Assembly: GCF_028736035.1 (NCBI RefSeq)
Contig: NZ_CP117866.1
Location: 8,969,001 to 9,033,000, forward strand
Length of the DNA: 64,000 nucleotides
Direction: 5' to 3'
From: Streptomyces sp. T12
GTDB taxonomy: Bacteria > Actinomycetota > Actinomycetes > Streptomycetales > Streptomycetaceae
The notes under the pieces are model-generated. The model was not told where the DNA came from and did no database searches. It saw nothing but the letters and a program-made list of their open reading frames with translations. Positions 10,358 through 17,171 of the stretch are shown here, in pieces. Within the stretch, counting starts at the first letter, position 1; each line of letters opens with the position of its first letter. Made by a program: the position numbers and the translations under genes.

Positions 10358-12919
10358 TCAGTTGGCGTTACGGCCCTTGCGGTACGCCGCCCAGCCCGCG
10401 ACGAGCAGCATGGCGGCGAGCGCGCCGACGGAGAGCACCGTGACGCCGGTCGAGGCGAGGCTGCCGCCCGCGGTGGAGGTGCCGGTGCCGTCGGATCCGC
10501 CCGTGGTGGAGGCGCTGTCCGTGCCTCCGGTGCCACCGCCCGTCGTGCCGGTACCGCCGCTGCCGCCGTCGTCGTCCGTGTCCACCGGGTCCTGCCCGAC
10601 GAAGCTGACCGGGACCTTGACGTCCTGCGAGCGGTCGCCGGACAGGGTGTGGTCGCCCCGGGTGGCCAGGACGCACGTGGCCTTGAAGCAGTCGGTGTAC
10701 TCGTCCTTGGCGTCCGCGGTCAGCTCGACCTCGAAGGTGCCGCCCGCGCCGTACGGGATCGCCAACTCCTCGCCGTAGTCGGGCGGGTTGGAGGAGATCC
10801 ACGCGGAGGAGTGCGAACCGCCGGTCATGTCGACGCCGCCGATGCACGGCGTGGGCAACTCGCCGTCGCCGTTGTCGACGCAGAGGGCGACATAGATGCC
10901 CTTCTTCGCGTCGTAGCCGGTGCCGGTGACCTTCACGGTCTGGTTCTCGGTGGCGAGGTTGTTGACCGGGGTGACGGTGAGTTTCTGGCCGTTCGGGCCG
11001 GTGACGGTTTTGGAGCCGGAGGGTTGGCCGGGGGTGTCCGGGGTTTCGTCGCCGTTCCCGTTCCCGTCGCCCGCTTCCTTGACCGTCAGAGCGATCGGCG
11101 ATGTGCGCGTCGTCCCCGGGGAGTTCGTGAACTCGGCGCGGTACCGGTACCCGTCCTGGGTCGCCTTCGCGGTGAAGGAGTACGCGTTCTGGGTCGCGCC
11201 GTCGACCGTCGACCAGGTCTGGCCGCTGTCGGCGCTGACCTGCCAGCGCACGGTCGGCTCCGGGGTGCCCTCGGCGGCGGCGACGAGGGTGACCTTGTCG
11301 CCGGGTGCTACGGACTGGTCCGTGGGGGACTGGACGACCTTGGGGGAGACGCGGCGGTCGAGCTTGACGACCTTGCTCTCGGCCTGGTCGGTGACGTAGA
11401 CGGACGTGGCGCCGGGGGTGACGGCGACGCCCGCGTAGGCGCCGGCGCGGCTGCCGGGCAGGGCGAGGGGCTCGGCCGCCCGCTCGGCCGTGGCGCTGTC
11501 GTAGACCTCCAGGGCGCCGACGTTGTCCGCGCCGTCCTGGGCGGTGCCCCAGTCCTCGCGCAGGACGAAGGCCTCGCCGGTGGCCGTGTCGAAGGCCATG
11601 GCCGTGGCCCGGTCCTTGCCGGTCAGCTTGGCCAGCTGCTTGCCGTCCTTGTCGAAGACGAGCACGTCGTAGGTGCTGCCCACCCAGACGTTGCCGGTCG
11701 CCGGGTCCGTCTCGACGAAGTGGACGGAGGCCGCCGGGAGTTCGGCGGTGGCGGTGACGGTGAGGGAGCCGGTCTCGACGCGGTACAGCTTTCCGCCCGC
11801 GGTGTCCGCCGACCAGGCGGTGCCGCGCGCGGCGTCCACGCCGAGGATGCCGCCGCCTTCCAGCGTGGCGGTCCTCTTGACCGTGCCGGTGGCGGTCTCG
11901 ACCTCGGACAGGACGGCTCCCTGGGCGACCAGCGTGGTGGACGCGTCGGTGCCGGGACCGACGCCGGTGACCGCGCCGCCGCCCAGCCACACGCCCTTCG
12001 CGGCCGTGTCGCCGTCCTTCGCGGTGCCTATGCCGCGCAGCGGGTAGTGGAAGACGACGCCGTCGCCGGCCAGCGGGGCGGCGATCCAGCGGACCACGCG
12101 GGCCGCGAGCGCGCCGGTGGCGCCGGGAGCCTGCTGGACGTGGCCGAGGAGTGTGCCGTCCTTCGGGTCGAGGGCGTACAGGCCCTGCTCGGCGACGTCC
12201 GCGGTGTCGGGGATGTTGTCCGAACCGACGTACAGCTTCCCGGAGTCGGGGTGCAGCAGCAGGTCCAGCGGGCGGCCCGCGGTGGTGAACTCGGCGGCCT
12301 GCGCGTAGCTGACGGTGCCCGGCGGTACGTCCACGCCGTCGCCGCCGTCGTCCCCGTCGCCGGGGTCCTGGCCCTCGAAGGTGACCGGGATGCGGACGTC
12401 CTGGGAGCGGTCGCCGGGGTTGCGGTGGTCGACGCGGGTGACGACCGAGCAGCTGACCTTGGTGCAGTCGAGGCTGCTGTCCTTGGCCTTGACGTCGATC
12501 CCGACGTCGAACGTGCCGCCCTCGCCCCACTGCACGGCCAGGTCGCCCGCGTACTCGTCGCCCTCGGGGACGATCCACTGCGAGGAACTGCCGGTGCCGG
12601 TCTCGTCAGCGCCGCCGAGGCACGGCGTGGGGACGCGGTTGTCGCCGTTGTCCTTGCACAGGGCGACGTAGATGGCCTTGGCCGCGTCGTAGCCGGAGCC
12701 GGTGACGCGGAGCGTCTCGCCGTCGGGGTCGAGGTCGGCGGAGGCGGAGACGGTGAGCTTCTGGCCGTCCTTGCCGAGGGCCGTCCTCGGTGTGTCGGAG
12801 GCCTGCGCGGCGGAGCCGAGCGCGACGGCGGTGGCCACGAGCGCGACGGCGCCGAGGAGCGCCGTGGAGCGCCGGGACCGGGGTCCGGCTCCGTCCGCCG
12901 GTCTGGGTTCGTCAGTCAT
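10358..12919 (-). CDS. LAXTG-anchored surface protein: two four-cysteine domains, beta-propeller and Ig-like domain
   Basis: An 853-residue exported protein. Signal peptide to about residue 40 (..GSAAQA-SD). Domain A (about 54-180) contains GSGYDAAKAIYVALCKDNG, PTPCLGG and DRSQDVRIPVTF; the same domain recurs near 640-760 (GTGYDAKKGIYVALCVDNG ... DRSQDVKVPVSF). Between them are a YVTN/quinoprotein-like beta-propeller (about 205-530, repeats such as GKLYVGSDN and GNVWVGSTYD) and an Ig-like domain (about 530-620, PTVRWQVSADSGQTW). A Gly/Ser/Thr-rich stretch leads to LASTG, a membrane helix and a basic tail, i.e. a class E sortase signal. It follows, after a hairpin, the iron-box gene at 13025-13564. 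Likely a cell-wall-exposed ligand-binding or adhesion protein; heme or iron capture is an inference from context only. Confidence 0.85.
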   Translation of the reverse strand: MTDEPRPADGAGPRSRRSTALLGAVALVATAVALGSAAQASDTPRTALGKDGQKLTVSASADLDPDGETLRVTGSGYDAAKAIYVALCKDNGDNRVPTPCLGGADETGTGSSSQWIVPEGDEYAGDLAVQWGEGGTFDVGIDVKAKDSSLDCTKVSCSVVTRVDHRNPGDRSQDVRIPVTFEGQDPGDGDDGGDGVDVPPGTVSYAQAAEFTTAGRPLDLLLHPDSGKLYVGSDNIPDTADVAEQGLYALDPKDGTLLGHVQQAPGATGALAARVVRWIAAPLAGDGVVFHYPLRGIGTAKDGDTAAKGVWLGGGAVTGVGPGTDASTTLVAQGAVLSEVETATGTVKRTATLEGGGILGVDAARGTAWSADTAGGKLYRVETGSLTVTATAELPAASVHFVETDPATGNVWVGSTYDVLVFDKDGKQLAKLTGKDRATAMAFDTATGEAFVLREDWGTAQDGADNVGALEVYDSATAERAAEPLALPGSRAGAYAGVAVTPGATSVYVTDQAESKVVKLDRRVSPKVVQSPTDQSVAPGDKVTLVAAAEGTPEPTVRWQVSADSGQTWSTVDGATQNAYSFTAKATQDGYRYRAEFTNSPGTTRTSPIALTVKEAGDGNGNGDETPDTPGQPSGSKTVTGPNGQKLTVTPVNNLATENQTVKVTGTGYDAKKGIYVALCVDNGDGELPTPCIGGVDMTGGSHSSAWISSNPPDYGEELAIPYGAGGTFEVELTADAKDEYTDCFKATCVLATRGDHTLSGDRSQDVKVPVSFVGQDPVDTDDDGGSGGTGTTGGGTGGTDSASTTGGSDGTGTSTAGGSLASTGVTVLSVGALAAMLLVAGWAAYRKGRNAN

Positions 12920-12920
12920 G

Positions 12921-12950
12921 GTGGGTCCTCATGGGTCCTCATGGGTCCTC
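12921..12950 (-). repeat. Three tandem 10-bp Shine-Dalgarno repeats with upstream mini-ORFs
   Basis: On the minus strand GAGGACCCAT is repeated three times directly before the ATG of the 853-residue surface protein, giving three consecutive SD-like GAGGA motifs and two out-of-frame ATGs. The first ATG opens an 8-codon frame whose TGA overlaps the main start as ATGA; the second ends a few bases inside the gene. This could tune translation initiation. Confidence 0.5.
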
Positions 12951-12987
12951 ACTGGTCGGGTGCGCCCGGCACCCCGGGGATACCGAG

Positions 12988-13014
12988 GGCCGGGCCCCCG
13001 TGTGGGGCCCGGCC
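12988..13014 (-). terminator. Hairpin after the 179-residue secreted protein gene
   Basis: A perfect 11-bp GC-only stem (12988-12998 with 13004-13014) and a 5-nt loop stand just after the stop at 13025 and before the 853-residue gene. It probably terminates or attenuates transcription, so the large downstream gene may receive only partial readthrough. Confidence 0.6.
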
Positions 13015-13024
13015 TGACGGGCGC

Positions 13025-13564
13025 CTACTGGAAGGTGATCGGGACGTGGACGTCGTACTTGCGGTCCTCGCTGTCGAAGTGGTCCGCGCGCGTCACCACG
13101 GCGCACTCGACGTCCTGGCCGCAGACGCTGCCGTCGCCGAGGGTGGCCTTGACGTAGATCTGCACGCTGAAGGTGCCGCCCGTGCCGAACTTGGAGCTGT
13201 TGGCGAACATGCCGCCGAAGGTGTTGTTGACCCAGTGCGAGGCACCGGTGGAGCCGTCCTCGTCCTGGCCGCCCAGACACGGGGTGGGCTTGTTGGCGCC
13301 CTGCGCCCCGTCGACCACGCACAGGCTGACGTAGATGCCCTGACCGGTGTTGTAGCCGGAGCCGGAGACGGTGATGACCTGGCCCGCGGCGGCGGCCGTG
13401 GCGGGCGAGGTCAGCGACAGGTTGTACGTCGCGCCGCCGTCGGTGACCGTGCGGGCCGAGGTGGCGGCGGAGGCCGACGTGGCCAGGCCCAGGGTCAGGG
13501 CGGCGGAGGCGGCTACGGCGAGGGCGGCGCGGGCGGCGGTACGGGGGGAGGGAACGGATCTCAT
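13025..13564 (-). CDS. Small secreted single-domain protein of the shared four-cysteine family, iron-box controlled
   Basis: A 179-residue protein with a clear signal peptide (MRSVPSPRTAARAALAVAA.. to an ASA cleavage site near residue 33) followed by one copy of the domain shared with the two LAXTG proteins of this locus: GSGYNTGQGIYVSLCVVDG, PTPCLGG, GTFSVQIYVKA, and a DRKYDVHVPITF ending. Four cysteines are spaced as in the other copies, suggesting two disulfides outside the cell. It has no membrane anchor, so it is probably released, like a hemophore or secreted ligand-binding protein, but this is inference. GAGGAG precedes the ATG and a 19-bp iron box lies 20-38 bp upstream. Confidence 0.8.
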   Translation of the reverse strand: MRSVPSPRTAARAALAVAASAALTLGLATSASAATSARTVTDGGATYNLSLTSPATAAAAGQVITVSGSGYNTGQGIYVSLCVVDGAQGANKPTPCLGGQDEDGSTGASHWVNNTFGGMFANSSKFGTGGTFSVQIYVKATLGDGSVCGQDVECAVVTRADHFDSEDRKYDVHVPITFQ

Positions 13565-13583
13565 GGTGAGCTCTCCTCGTGAG

Positions 13584-13602
13584 TTAAGTAAGGCAAACCT
13601 AA
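13584..13602 (-). promoter_or_regulatory. Iron box (DmdR1/IdeR-type operator)
   Basis: Read on the minus strand the 19-mer is TTAGGTTTGCCTTACTTAA, close to the DtxR-family consensus TTAGGTTAGGCTAACCTAA used by IdeR/DmdR1. It sits 20 bp upstream of the start of the 179-residue secreted protein gene, in position to overlap its promoter, so that gene is expected to be induced by iron starvation. Confidence 0.7.
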
Positions 13603-13735
13603 GTGCCGTTCCCGTTGGATTGTCAACGGGCGGCAAAGAGCATCAACGCCCCTGAATCACAAGGGATTTGGGCATGCCGGAGAGCGGACCGTCCGACTGG
13701 ATGCGCCCGCTCCTCGTCCCGTCCCGACGGATGTC

Positions 13736-14644
13736 CTACGTCGGCGCCCGCACGCCGAAGTCCGCGACAGCCCTGCGTTCCCCGGTCACCGTGGCGAGCT
13801 CGACGGTGTGCGCGCCCTCGGTGGCCGTCGCGTACACCGGGAACGTCCGGGAGATCCGTCCCGCCTCGTCGGCCACCGCCTGGTACCGGGTGTCCTGGTC
13901 GATCGCGACGAGCACGACCTCGCCGGGCTCGAACCCCGCGCCACTGACCTGCTGTTCGACGCCGGGGGTGAGGGTGGTGCGGGTGACGGTGGCGGACGGG
14001 GCCGTGGCCTGTGGGGGGAGCGTCGCCGGTTTCTCCTCCGGCGCGGCTTCGGTCGTGTCGCCACCGGTCCCCACCGTCAGGTCCAGCACCCCGTACGCGT
14101 CCCCCGCCGCGAATTCCGCTCCGCTCCACTCGGACAGCAGCGCCGCTCCGTCCTGCGTGAGTGACGCCTGCAGCCCGGTCCAGGTCACCCCACTCGTCCG
14201 TACGACGGGCTCGGCGCCGGACTTCACGTCGGCCAGGGTGAGTTCGCGGGCCCGGCCGTCGACGGCCGTACGCGCGTGGAGGGTGCCCGCGTCGCCGTCG
14301 AGCCGCAGCCGGAGCCCGCCGAGGGGCAGGGGGCGTGGGCCGGTGGAGGAGGTCAGCAGGGCCGAGCCGCCCAACTCGACGTCCGCGTCGCCGGTTTCGG
14401 GGTCGGCGCCGCCGCCGGTCGTCGGGAACCAGGCGCGGTCCGCGGATCCCCGTACGGCGGGCTCGGCCACGCCGAGAGAGATGCCCTGGTCGTCGAACTC
14501 GGCGGATGCGAGGTTCCAGCTCGCGTAGCCGCCGGACACCTCGCGCGCGAACGCGTCCCCGTCCTGCGCGGCCGCGCCGCCCGGACACAGCAGCGTGAGC
14601 AGCGCGCCGCCCGTCACGGCGGCGGCGCCGGGTCTCTTGGTCAT
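13736..14644 (-). CDS. Secreted HtaA-like protein with C-terminal Ig-like domain
   Basis: A 302-residue exported protein with a signal peptide ending near GGAAAQ. Residues about 35-195 resemble the HtaA heme-binding domain of actinobacterial iron-uptake systems: an opening SGGYASWNLASAEF, a middle DADVELGGSALLT followed by LRLRLDGDAGTLHA, and the characteristic close WTGLQASLTQDGAALLSEW. A Pro/Ala linker leads to an Ig-like C-terminal domain (VTRTTLTPGVEQQVSGAGFE). No LAXTG or membrane anchor is present. It lies 38 bp after the LAXTG gene of 14682-15488 on the same strand, so it probably shares that gene's iron-box promoter. AAGGAG stands about 13 bp and GGAG about 5 bp before the ATG. HtaA assignment is by pattern and needs a profile search. 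Confidence 0.65.
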   Translation of the reverse strand: MTKRPGAAAVTGGALLTLLCPGGAAAQDGDAFAREVSGGYASWNLASAEFDDQGISLGVAEPAVRGSADRAWFPTTGGGADPETGDADVELGGSALLTSSTGPRPLPLGGLRLRLDGDAGTLHARTAVDGRARELTLADVKSGAEPVVRTSGVTWTGLQASLTQDGAALLSEWSGAEFAAGDAYGVLDLTVGTGGDTTEAAPEEKPATLPPQATAPSATVTRTTLTPGVEQQVSGAGFEPGEVVLVAIDQDTRYQAVADEAGRISRTFPVYATATEGAHTVELATVTGERRAVADFGVRAPT

Positions 14645-14681
14645 CTCCAAGTCTCCTTTCGGAGGGTGAGTCGAGTGGGGG

Positions 14682-15488
14682 TCACTCCGCGTTCGCCGCG
14701 CGGCGCCTGCGTGCCCAGAGCCAGGTTCCGGTGCCGGCCGCGACCAGGGCCGCCGCGGTCACGCCGGCCGTCAGGGCCACGGAACCGGTGCGGGCGAGCG
14801 GGCCGTCGGAGGTCTCGTCGGCGGCGCCGTCGCTCGAACTGCCCGTACCGCCACCGCCGGTCGCGCCCGCACTGGCCGTCGCGGTCGGACTCGCCGTGGC
14901 GCCGTCGCCGCTGGGCGAGCTGCCGCCGGTGCCGCCGGTGGCGCCGAAGGTCACCGGGATCCGAACGGTCTGGCTCTGGTCGCCGCCCCGGGTGTGGTCG
15001 TTGCGGGTGATGACGGCGCATTTCACGCCGGACTTGGTGCAGTCGGTGTTCGCGTCCTTGACGCGGACCTTGAGTCGCACGCCGAACGAGCCCTTGTGGC
15101 CGCTGCCTTCGTACGGTGTCGCCAACCCCTCGCCGTACGAGGGCGGGTTGGAGGAGATCCACGCGGACGCCCCGGACTCGCCGGACATGTCCACTCCGCC
15201 CACACAGGGAGTGGGGGTCTTGCCGGCGCCGTTGTCCACGCAGAAGGCGACGTAGATGCCCTTCTCGGTGTTGTAGCCGGTGCCGGACACGGTGACCGTC
15301 TCGCCCGCCGGCTTGAGGCCCGAGGGCTTGGAGACCGTGAGTTTCTGGCCCTCCGGGCCCGTTGCCGAGGCGCCCGCCGCGGCTGCCGGCGAGGCGGCCG
15401 GAAGCGCCAGGAGGACGGCGGCGGCCGAGGCCGCCAGCACGGTCGTACGGTCAACTCGCCTGCCGCGCAGGCCACATGGCGATTTCAC
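14682..15488 (-). CDS. LAXTG-anchored surface protein with one four-cysteine domain
   Basis: A 268-residue protein: signal peptide (to about residue 40, SPAAAAG), one domain of the shared family (GTGYNTEKGIYVAFCVDNG, PTPCVGG, SAWISSNPPSYGEGL, DQSQTVRIPVTF), a Ser/Ala/Gly linker, the sorting motif LARTG, a membrane helix and the tail RRRRAANAE. LAXTG is the recognition motif of Streptomyces class E sortases. It is the first gene of a minus-strand group and starts at GTG 15488, 24 bp from a 19-bp iron box, so expression is expected under iron limitation. No sortase gene lies in the window. Function is unknown; a wall-bound receptor for an iron source is a plausible inference. Confidence 0.82.
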   Translation of the reverse strand: MKSPCGLRGRRVDRTTVLAASAAAVLLALPAASPAAAAGASATGPEGQKLTVSKPSGLKPAGETVTVSGTGYNTEKGIYVAFCVDNGAGKTPTPCVGGVDMSGESGASAWISSNPPSYGEGLATPYEGSGHKGSFGVRLKVRVKDANTDCTKSGVKCAVITRNDHTRGGDQSQTVRIPVTFGATGGTGGSSPSGDGATASPTATASAGATGGGGTGSSSDGAADETSDGPLARTGSVALTAGVTAAALVAAGTGTWLWARRRRAANAE

Positions 15489-15511
15489 GTCGCACCCCCA
15501 CCAGGAGTTAA

Positions 15512-15530
15512 TAAGGTAAACCTAACCTAA
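15512..15530. promoter_or_regulatory. Iron box between divergent surface-protein and binding-protein genes
   Basis: The 19-mer read on the minus strand is TTAGGTTAGGTTTACCTTA, an excellent match to the DmdR1/IdeR consensus TTAGGTTAGGCTAACCTAA. It is 24 bp from the minus-strand GTG at 15488 and 47 bp from the plus-strand ATG at 15577, so one regulator could control both directions. Confidence 0.8.
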
Positions 15531-15576
15531 GCTATTGATCAACTGGGTGCGAGACGAGAGACCGGAGGGCCGAGCG

Positions 15577-16656
15577 ATGCGAATGACCGGAAGACCCCAC
15601 CTGTTGACGGGAAGACCCCACCCCGGGCCACGGGCCCGCCGAGCCCTCATGCCCCTTGCTCTGGCCCTCGCGTTGCTGACGGGTGCCTGCGGCGGCGGGG
15701 GTGGCGGCTCCTCGACGGCGGACGCGTCACCCGCCTCCGCGGGCGAACGCGCGGCCGCTGCCGAGAAGCAGCTCGCGAAGAACACCCTCGTCCCCCTCGA
15801 AGGCGAGCCGCCGACTCCGAAGTTGCCGGTCACCGTCGACTCCTCCGACGGGCGTGAGGTGAAGGTGAAGGACGCCTCGCGCATCCTGCCGCTCAACGGG
15901 GGTGTCGCGGAGATCGTGTTCACGTTGGGTCTCGGTGACCGTGTCGTCGGCCGCGACATCACCGCCACCTTCGCGGAGGCGAAGAAACTCCCGCAGGTCA
16001 CCAAGGCGCACGACGTGAGCGCGGAGAGCGTGCTCTCGCTGCGGCCGACGGTCGTGCTGGCCGACACCGACACCGGCCCCTCGGAGGCCATCGACCAGAT
16101 CCGCGATGCCGGCGTCCCCGTCGTCGTACTCGATCCGGCCACCGAACTCGCCGACGTCCCCAGGCGCACCACCCGCATCGCCGAGGCGCTCGGTGTCCCC
16201 GACGCGGGCAAGGCTCTCAACGAGCGCATGAGCGACGAACTCGCCGCGGCCCGCGCCGCCGTGCCCAAGGGCGGCAAGCCCAGGGTCGCCTTCCTGTACA
16301 TGCGCGGCAGCGCGGCCGTCTATCTGATCGGCGGCAAGGGCTCGGGCGCCGACTCGCTGATCGAGGCTGCGGGGGCGGTGGACGCGGGCAAGGAGGCCGG
16401 GCTGGACAAGCCGTTCACGCCGATCACGAGTGAGGCCCTGGTGCGGGCGCGGCCGGATGTGATCCTGATGATGACCAAGGGGCTGGAGTCGGTCGGCGGC
16501 ATCGACGGGCTGGTCGACATACCCGGGATCGGTCAGACGCCGGCGGGGATGGACCGGCGGGTGGTGGACCTGGAGGACGGGGTGTTGCTGGGGTATGGGC
16601 CGCGGATGCCGTTGGTGATCGACATCCTGGTGGATCGCATACATCGGGCCGCCTGA
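15577..16656 (+). CDS. Heme/iron ABC transporter substrate-binding lipoprotein (HmuT-like)
   Basis: A 359-residue protein with a lipoprotein signal (hydrophobic stretch then LLTGAC, cysteine near residue 34). The mature part has the periplasmic-binding-protein class III pattern of heme and siderophore receptors: RILPLNGGVAEIVFTLGLGD, SVLSLRPTVVLADTDTG, VAFLYMRG and ARPDVILMMTKGLESVGG. The HmuT/PhuT group binds heme and delivers it to an FecCD-type permease. GGAGG lies 8 bp before the ATG at 15577. It diverges from the iron-box surface genes. Oddly, the permease and ATPase genes that normally follow are missing; instead a dehydrogenase remnant follows directly, so the protein may serve a transporter encoded elsewhere or be an orphan. 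Confidence 0.85.
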   Translation: MRMTGRPHLLTGRPHPGPRARRALMPLALALALLTGACGGGGGGSSTADASPASAGERAAAAEKQLAKNTLVPLEGEPPTPKLPVTVDSSDGREVKVKDASRILPLNGGVAEIVFTLGLGDRVVGRDITATFAEAKKLPQVTKAHDVSAESVLSLRPTVVLADTDTGPSEAIDQIRDAGVPVVVLDPATELADVPRRTTRIAEALGVPDAGKALNERMSDELAAARAAVPKGGKPRVAFLYMRGSAAVYLIGGKGSGADSLIEAAGAVDAGKEAGLDKPFTPITSEALVRARPDVILMMTKGLESVGGIDGLVDIPGIGQTPAGMDRRVVDLEDGVLLGYGPRMPLVIDILVDRIHRAA

Positions 16657-16714
16657 GGTCAACGCCCGTCCGGGACAGGGAAGTTCACAGTTGCAGCAGC
16701 TGGCGACTCCGTGG

Positions 16715-16975
16715 CCCCCTCGCGCAGGCGACGGTCCGGACCCCTACACCAAGGACGTCCAGGTCATGGGCATCCGCAACGCGCTCGCCTACCCCGGCGA
16801 CCCCCTCAGCCGCACCGCCTCGGCCCACAAGGTCCTGGACGCGGGCGCGGGGCCGTTGATCGCCTCAGGTACGCCGGTCTCCGGGCTGTACGCCGTCGGA
16901 GAGGTCGCCGGCTTCGGCGGAGGCGGCGTCCACGGCTACCGCTCACTGGAGGGGCGTGGAGCGGCGTACGGCGTC
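16715..16975 (+). pseudogene. Remnant of an FAD-binding dehydrogenase (3-ketosteroid dehydrogenase/fumarate reductase-like)
   Basis: The plus strand encodes DPYTKDVQVMGIRNALAYPG, then AGPLIASGTPVSGLYAVGEV and VAGFGGGGVHGYRSLEG. These are two conserved C-terminal segments of FAD-binding dehydrogenases, in which GLYAAGEVAGFGGGGVHGY forms part of the FAD site. The stretch of about 20 residues that normally lies between GPLIA and the GLYA motif is deleted, the N-terminal three quarters of the enzyme is absent, and nothing recognisable follows SLEG. There is no start context. It is a decayed fragment, probably left by the deletion that removed the rest of the neighbouring transporter operon. Confidence 0.7.
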
Positions 16976-17171
16976 GGTGGCGCCGACGGCCGCGGGGGCC
17001 AGGTGCGCACGACCAGTACGGCGTCTGTCGGCCGAGGGTCCGTCCCGTCCCGTACGGCCTGCGGCACGCGCGCGTGGAGGTCGTCGGGCCGGGTCCCACC
17101 GTCCAGTACGGCGGCCGGCTCCGCCCACCGTGACAGCTCGGCGAATGCTGCCGGCATCTCGACGGCGATGC
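16976..17171. other. Gene-poor stretch between dehydrogenase remnant and permease
   Basis: About 200 bp. The minus strand can be read as FAELSRWAEPAAVLDGGTR with similar composition on either side, which looks like former coding sequence, but I recognise no family, start or ribosome-binding site. Confidence 0.3.

Follow-up and report, generated by a model that had tools for sequence, protein, structure and literature searches.

A candidate cell-wall heme-capture locus with neocarzinostatin-like domains in Streptomyces sp. T12

For Gram-positive bacteria, two domain types are known to capture heme at the cell surface, NEAT and HtaA. In the Isd/NEAT wall relay of the Firmicutes, one small beta domain occurs in sortase-anchored and in secreted proteins, which feed a lipoprotein of the HmuT/IsdE type. 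Here, a window of 64 kb from Streptomyces sp. T12 (contig NZ_CP117866.1, positions 8,969,001 to 9,033,000; genome of 11.46 Mb on two contigs) was analyzed, and a locus at positions 10,358 to 16,656 of this window is built likewise. Its small domain belongs to another family, and no NEAT family is found among the Pfam matches of the window proteins up to an E-value of 1; NEAT itself is mentioned in an excerpt of PMC8027190. The locus is very probably a module for the uptake of heme or a close tetrapyrrole, and we consider it probable that it is a cell-wall heme-capture module with a neocarzinostatin-like working domain. This explanation is based on the computed genes and iron boxes, the predicted fold, the ligand positions of HmuT, the linkage to HmuTUV, HmuO and HtaA and the split of HmuT from its permease.

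The HtaA/HmuTUV/HmuO uptake system of Corynebacterium and of Streptomyces (SCO2267, SCO2270-2274) shares HmuT, HmuUV, HmuO, iron boxes and surface partners with the system described here, which differs in its neocarzinostatin-like surface partners, its divergent HtaA and the position of HmuT inside the surface-protein locus. The S. coelicolor genes SCO2267-2277 have been described as co-expressed, with three predicted DmdR1 sites, and as uncharacterised (PMC12161575). The apoproteins of neocarzinostatin, macromomycin and C-1027 (PF00960, NF040680) have their fold in common with the window domain. In contrast to them, the window family has wall-anchored and multi-domain forms, iron boxes and a linkage to heme importers, and its P[TS]PCxGG and R-x-D-H motifs set it apart.

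The divergent lipoprotein of the locus (359 amino acids (aa); 15577..16656, plus strand) carries a lipobox, LTGAC at residues 34-38, recognized by eye, and matches PF01497 with 115.8 bits. Its top matches in the PDB are 5gj3 (7e-57) and 5az3 (6e-51), which we take to be the heme binders RhuT and C. glutamicum HmuT, respectively. Entries named for hemin range from 5e-47 to 2e-24 (5b58 at 5e-47, 3md9 at 2e-33), and 2r7a and 5khl are also named as heme binders. The residues H145, Y241 and R243 are invariant in an alignment of ten and align with residues reading Ala in 5b4z, 5b50 and 5b51, presumably point mutants of C. glutamicum HmuT. For HmuT, His141 and Tyr240 have been described as axial ligands and Arg242 as the partner of the tyrosine (excerpt of PMC4926363). 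Judged from these alignments, the lipoprotein is an HmuT of the heme type in which the aligned heme ligands are kept, and the preliminary description of the locus, which had called it a heme-type binding lipoprotein, was right in this respect.

These matches also bear on an explanation in which the ligand of the surface domain is a different tetrapyrrole or some iron chelate (coproporphyrin, zinc-coproporphyrin or a siderophore), carried by an HmuTUV-like transporter. The FecCD-type permease scores against vitamin B12 and siderophore permease models as well, all below their cut-offs, and production of coproporphyrin III by a streptomycete has been reported (PMC10060970, seen as an excerpt). 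Nevertheless, such a ligand appears quite improbable, since the window HmuT ranks the hemin-named proteins far ahead of the vitamin B12 binders, which reach 3.5e-8 at best, keeps the heme ligand positions, and since the other genes that recur next to the domain are those of heme oxygenase and HtaA.

The lipoprotein gene forms a divergent pair with the gene of a wall-anchored single-domain protein (268 aa, GTG start; 14682..15488), which is followed, likewise on the minus strand, by the genes of an HtaA-like exported protein (302 aa; 13736..14644), a secreted protein (179 aa; 13025..13564) with a signal peptide by eye and no anchor, and a wall-anchored protein of 853 aa (10358..12919). The 268-aa protein holds one copy of the domain (14943..15368, minus strand; profile match of 227.9 bits; PF00960 at E = 3.8e-4, below the cut-off) and the sortase signal LARTG at residues 231-235 (14784..14798, minus strand). 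A further copy lies in the secreted protein (13028..13450, minus strand; 200.4 bits). The 853-aa protein carries two copies (12377..12784 and 10601..11008, both on the minus strand; 237.1 and 237.7 bits) and the signal LASTG at residues 821-825 (10445..10459, minus strand). Behind both LAxTG motifs a hydrophobic stretch and then a basic tail are present, so that both proteins show the features of sortase anchoring, and ten sortase matches are found in the source genome. The preliminary description, made from the DNA letters, had named these four exported proteins beside the lipoprotein, with four copies of a four-cysteine domain in three of them, one secreted, one LARTG-anchored and two in a LASTG-anchored protein, and all of this holds. 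The three other copies are 40-43% identical to the first, and a profile of the four matches the own genome at only these four places at an E-value of 0.01 or better.

The predicted fold of the domain is of the neocarzinostatin type, since structures of this type are the top matches of the AlphaFold model in both Foldseek and VIA-align; the TM-scores against 2mcm are modest (0.42 for the query, 0.64 for the target). The fold is immunoglobulin (Ig)-like, and arrestins come next in this comparison at slightly lower Z. On sequence level, the cut-offs of the family models are not reached (best Pfam score for PF00960 23.0 vs. 25 bits; best copy for NF040680 40.6 vs. 86), and PF00960 is precomputed on a number of the listed relatives. 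By its modeled structure, the domain is a divergent member of the neocarzinostatin family, and the idea of a new fold was rejected in view of the Foldseek and VIA-align matches. The preliminary description had held that a match to a known non-metal family would speak against a role in iron acquisition. Formally such a match exists in the neocarzinostatin family; the genomic context nonetheless points to heme.

Two database searches gave 721 and 948 matches, which may overlap. Those listed are mostly called hypothetical and come from Streptomyces, Actinomadura, Micromonospora, Motilibacter, Nanopelagicaceae and others. The domain is marked by the motifs P[TS]PCxGG and R-x-D-H, and in 121 near-full domains from 78 loci a tyrosine column is conserved to 100%, a tryptophan column to 98% and the histidine of R-x-D-H to 98%; in the 179-aa protein these residues are Y78, W111 and H162. 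In a tree of 92 domains, built from few columns and therefore unsure in its deep forks, the secreted type forms one clade and each copy of the 853-aa protein forms one clade with its counterparts, while the anchored type of the window (268 aa) groups with domains of family f17.

The closest solved relative by sequence is ThiX of C. glutamicum (7qhm chain M; profile E-values of 8e-8 and 5e-10). Three cysteine columns align between ThiX and the window domain; the second is displaced by one position, and both carry the D-H motif. Unlike the window proteins, ThiX is a lipid-anchored accessory subunit of the respiratory bcc-aa3 supercomplex. Its soluble domain has been described as not resolved in the structure and its activity as unknown (excerpt of PMC8795186). 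By profile, this soluble domain falls into the same domain family as the window copies.

The fold and the sub-threshold matches to PF00960 and NF040680 would also fit to surface proteins that are carriers of enediyne-type antibiotics or self-protection proteins. This is highly improbable, because all copies stay far below the NF040680 cut-off, the genes are linked to iron boxes and to HmuTUV and HmuO, and the domain is also present in small genomes of 1.3-1.8 Mb (family f25, see below). In the open-licence literature, outside of which most subscription journals lie, no paper was found that joins the neocarzinostatin family to heme uptake or to Streptomyces and sortase, and the listed titles and beginnings of abstracts on neocarzinostatin and porphyrin held no natural link to heme.

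The linkage of the domain to heme-uptake genes was followed across the actinobacteria. In a class-wide sample, the domain is present in 65 of 345 genomes and 28 of 126 genera, and 60 of the 65 supplied a locus for comparison; left out were the window genome (G000), G056, which was already represented by L017, G242, G317 and G335. Adjacency was counted by tblastn; gene calls are heuristic, with EfeO, EfeB and EfeU named by eye. Among the query proteins, Pfam confirms a binding protein, a FecCD permease, an ABC ATPase and three heme oxygenases. The domain was found by tblastn in 59 of the 60 loci; the remaining one (L115) was dropped, though it holds HtaA and HmuTUV. Among the 59, HmuT is present in 51, HmuU in 51, HmuV in 49, heme oxygenase (HO) in 25 and HtaA in 21, and at least one of HmuT, HmuU, heme oxygenase and HtaA in 55. 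Nine loci that supplied queries match by construction (L058, L059, L062, L064, L065, L067, L071, L072 and L075); without them, HmuT and HmuU are each found in 42 of 50. Twenty control windows with shifted coordinates, taken from 20 of the 60 genomes, gave HmuT in none, HmuU in one, HmuV-like genes in six, and neither heme oxygenase nor HtaA. With relatedness ignored, the Fisher test of the 59 loci against these controls yields 1e-12 for HmuT, 4e-11 for HmuU, 2e-4 for HO and 9e-4 for HtaA.

In a phylum sample, the domain occurs in 8 of 296 genomes, and in the loci outside the class HmuTUV lies near it in four of four and heme oxygenase in three of four. Within the genus sample (n = 121), HmuT is present in 22 of 23 genomes with the domain and in 38 of 98 others (Fisher 2.8e-7), and HtaA in 20 of 23 against 40 of 98 (Fisher 5.7e-5), again with relatedness ignored. 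The co-occurrence of the domain with HtaA and HmuTUV, which had been proposed as a check, was found.

The HtaA-like protein inside the locus has an Ig/neocarzinostatin-like C-terminal stretch. PF04213 matches it with 25.2 bits, barely over the cut-off of 24, and is precomputed on most of its listed relatives; residues 210-247 match NF040680 at E = 0.022, far below the cut-off, and a PDB search gave nothing useful. A tyrosine motif (WGxxxSFRxYV) and the histidine of a nearby second motif, which we take to be the heme ligands of HtaA, each occur in 13 of the 14 other HtaA domains compared. Neither motif aligned in the window protein or in five relatives, the alignment being loose at this place. 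An embedded HtaA-like protein, as proposed in the preliminary description, is therefore borne out by the family match, whereas the missing motifs mean that it may not be the heme binder here, and it was rejected as the obvious one of the locus. In the source genome, the strongest candidates for capturing heme at the surface are therefore the neocarzinostatin-like proteins. A second protein with an HtaA domain (173 aa) is encoded 2.7 kb past the end of the window (at about 9035.7 kb of the contig; L139:5701-6222), between terpene-cyclase/prenyltransferase-like and ferredoxin-reductase-like genes (named by eye). It has the tyrosine and histidine motifs like other HtaA domains and by eye no signal peptide, and is possibly a cytosolic HtaA; in view of the missing signal peptide and the oxidoreductase neighbor, it was set aside as a part of the system (L001/L139).

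That some genomes join the domain with HtaA domains in one protein leads to a further explanation, in which the locus is a heme system but the neocarzinostatin-like domain does not itself contact heme. Like many Ig-like domains, it would serve in structure or recognition and dock hemoproteins, HtaA or HmuT, and HtaA could supply the heme site. The Ig-like fold, with arrestins at only slightly lower Z, would fit, and no solved heme complex of the neocarzinostatin fold is among the listed structure matches. On the contrary, HtaA of the window type is devoid of the tyrosine and histidine motifs, and in the family f25 the domain occurs in 16 genomes (1.3-1.8 Mb) in which no HtaA match is found at an E-value of 1e-3, yet HmuT lies nearby in 15 of the 16 loci. 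The one other surface heme domain known from actinobacteria is thus missing in this family. We consider a pure docking role unlikely, albeit with more weight than the two explanations discussed above, and lean toward a domain that itself binds heme.

Because close homologues of one f25 protein are named Candidatus Planktophila dulcis, Candidatus Nanopelagicaceae bacterium and strain IMCC25003, this family is taken to be the acI lineage of freshwater actinobacteria. Planktophila has been stated to be auxotrophic for heme (PMC12381374, in an excerpt citing a 2021 PNAS paper). In several of these acI-type loci (L057-L059, L077-L089; one homologue lies at L057:8123-8614), the domain gene is accompanied by another neocarzinostatin-like gene, which is more divergent and codes for about 330 residues. 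Joined domains are seen in L067, where a 992-aa protein matches HtaA with 297 bits and neocarzinostatin (22.0 of 25 bits) and LPXTG (18.8 of 20 bits) below their cut-offs. In the family f19 (L069, L070, L099, L104, L105, L107 and L112), giant open frames of about 1,800-2,650 residues contain HtaA and neocarzinostatin-like domains, several in each frame. They lie next to heme oxygenase and, except in L069, which is at a contig end, next to HmuTUV.

Regulation by iron is suggested by two boxes of the DmdR/IdeR/DtxR type. Matches to the consensus TTAGGTTAGGCTAACCTAA were counted at three mismatches or fewer, and the whole 64 kb contain two, each with three mismatches and both in the expected upstream regions, against none in 100 shuffles. 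One lies between the divergent genes of HmuT and the anchored protein (15512..15530), the other upstream of the gene of the secreted 179-aa protein (13584..13602). With the window excluded, 15 of 19 Streptomyces loci have a box ahead of the secreted gene. In 73 named loci, taken from the best 80 of 188 relatives, the 400 bp upstream of the secreted gene contain a box in 43 of 49 cases and those upstream of the anchored gene in 56 of 61, and over 1.23 Mb of these loci 109 boxes were observed vs. none in one mononucleotide shuffle. Across the class, the box is present in 21 of 60 loci, all with a GC content of 0.60 or more, and in none of the 20 control windows. The two good DmdR/IdeR boxes noticed earlier are thus confirmed and conserved in relatives, and DmdR1 would control both operons in response to iron.

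In many relatives, HmuT is in an operon with HmuU and HmuV. In the source genome, HmuUV adjoining HmuT had to be rejected: tblastn did not find HmuU or HmuV between 2000 and 26000 of the window, and they lie at about 2.889 Mb of the contig, about 6 Mb away, with HmuO upstream. There, iron boxes precede HmuO and HmuU, an EfeOBU set lies downstream by eye, and no HmuT or HtaA was found. The genomic context strongly supports the earlier claim of an iron-controlled wall heme-capture system on a non-NEAT domain; the ABC permease and ATPase lie about 6 Mb outside the window.

The HmuUV locus was compared in 14 chosen genomes, nine with the long cluster or a part of it, four with only the core (secreted and 853-type genes) and the core-free G062. 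No HmuU match was obtained in G008 and G062, so that the locus was found in eight of the nine long-cluster genomes. In seven of these eight (G000, G001, G007, G022, G049, G063 and G097) it lacks HmuT, and in six of the seven (not in G022) HtaA is missing as well. In the eighth, G014, HmuT and HtaA are present at the HmuUV locus, as they are in the four core-only genomes. The window-type HmuT copy of G014 (L009:12310-13050) is internally shortened, and both aligned heme ligands are lost from it. At an E-value of 1e-35, HmuT is found in 60 of 121 genomes, with one match each except for G014, and in Streptomyces sp. NBC_00620 (L169) the genes of HmuV, HmuU, HO and HmuT form one uninterrupted stretch with the surface cluster. 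S. lincolnensis (L159) is a further carrier of the cluster. The simplest reading would be that the window HmuT feeds the distant HmuUV.

For the heme-capture module, the following mechanism can be proposed. Upon iron starvation, the iron repressor would leave both boxes, and the cell would produce one secreted and two sortase-anchored proteins with four neocarzinostatin-like domains in all, alongside HmuT and the divergent HtaA-like protein. The domains would take heme, or heme released from hemoproteins, outside of the cell and in the wall and hand it on to the HmuT lipoprotein, a direction of transfer which we infer. HmuT would then load HmuUV, the permease whose genes lie, together with that of the heme oxygenase HmuO, about 6 Mb away.

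Several observations weigh against such a role of the domain. The conserved tyrosine aligns with a tyrosine of the enediyne carrier C-1027 and may be structural, in the solved structures of this fold the ligands are other small molecules, and the rows listed by Foldseek and VIA-align include no heme protein, although absence from the VIA-align rows is uninformative. Only 21 of the 60 class loci have the box, and it was not found in any of the 16 loci of family f25 or in any of the four from outside the class. Four class loci (L060, L076, L080 and L114) are devoid of HmuT, HmuU, heme oxygenase and HtaA, and tblastn found none of these four in the fetched stretch of 13 of 20 Streptomyces loci (L007-L026). 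Of the latter, L008 and L014 are contigs of 4-5 kb from long-cluster genomes, and the rest mostly hold a two-gene core; in genomes of this kind HmuT is encoded elsewhere (22 of 23 domain genomes). Finally, G062, with a weak domain match, has no match to HmuT, HtaA or HmuU.

If the heme-capture module is real, a further widespread surface heme-capture domain would come from a family known for antibiotic carriers, proteins mostly called hypothetical would obtain a function, and a lead would be given on ThiX, an unexplained subunit of a respiratory complex. The domain would further suggest how acI freshwater actinobacteria obtain heme. A wider and tentative proposal, which we hold to be possible but would not favor, is that the neocarzinostatin fold is a natural heme-binding fold. 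Here, the family beside HmuTUV would comprise hemophores and wall heme receptors, among them the surface heme receptor of the heme-requiring acI bacteria in which no HtaA was found, and the enediyne carriers would be a side branch in which heme was swapped for a flat antibiotic.

Between its two domain copies, the 853-aa protein contains a middle region (residues about 196-520; 11360..12334, minus strand), which is conserved among 14 aligned proteins. It had been described as a beta-propeller; it looks propeller-like by eye, and no Pfam match over the cut-off covers it. An I-set immunoglobulin domain follows at residues 526-603 (11111..11344, minus strand; PF07679, 24.8 bits vs. a cut-off of 23.7). 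On the other side of the locus, 3' of the HmuT gene, a frame at 16691-16990 (plus strand) resembles by eye the truncated end of an FAD-dependent oxidoreductase and is probably a remnant.

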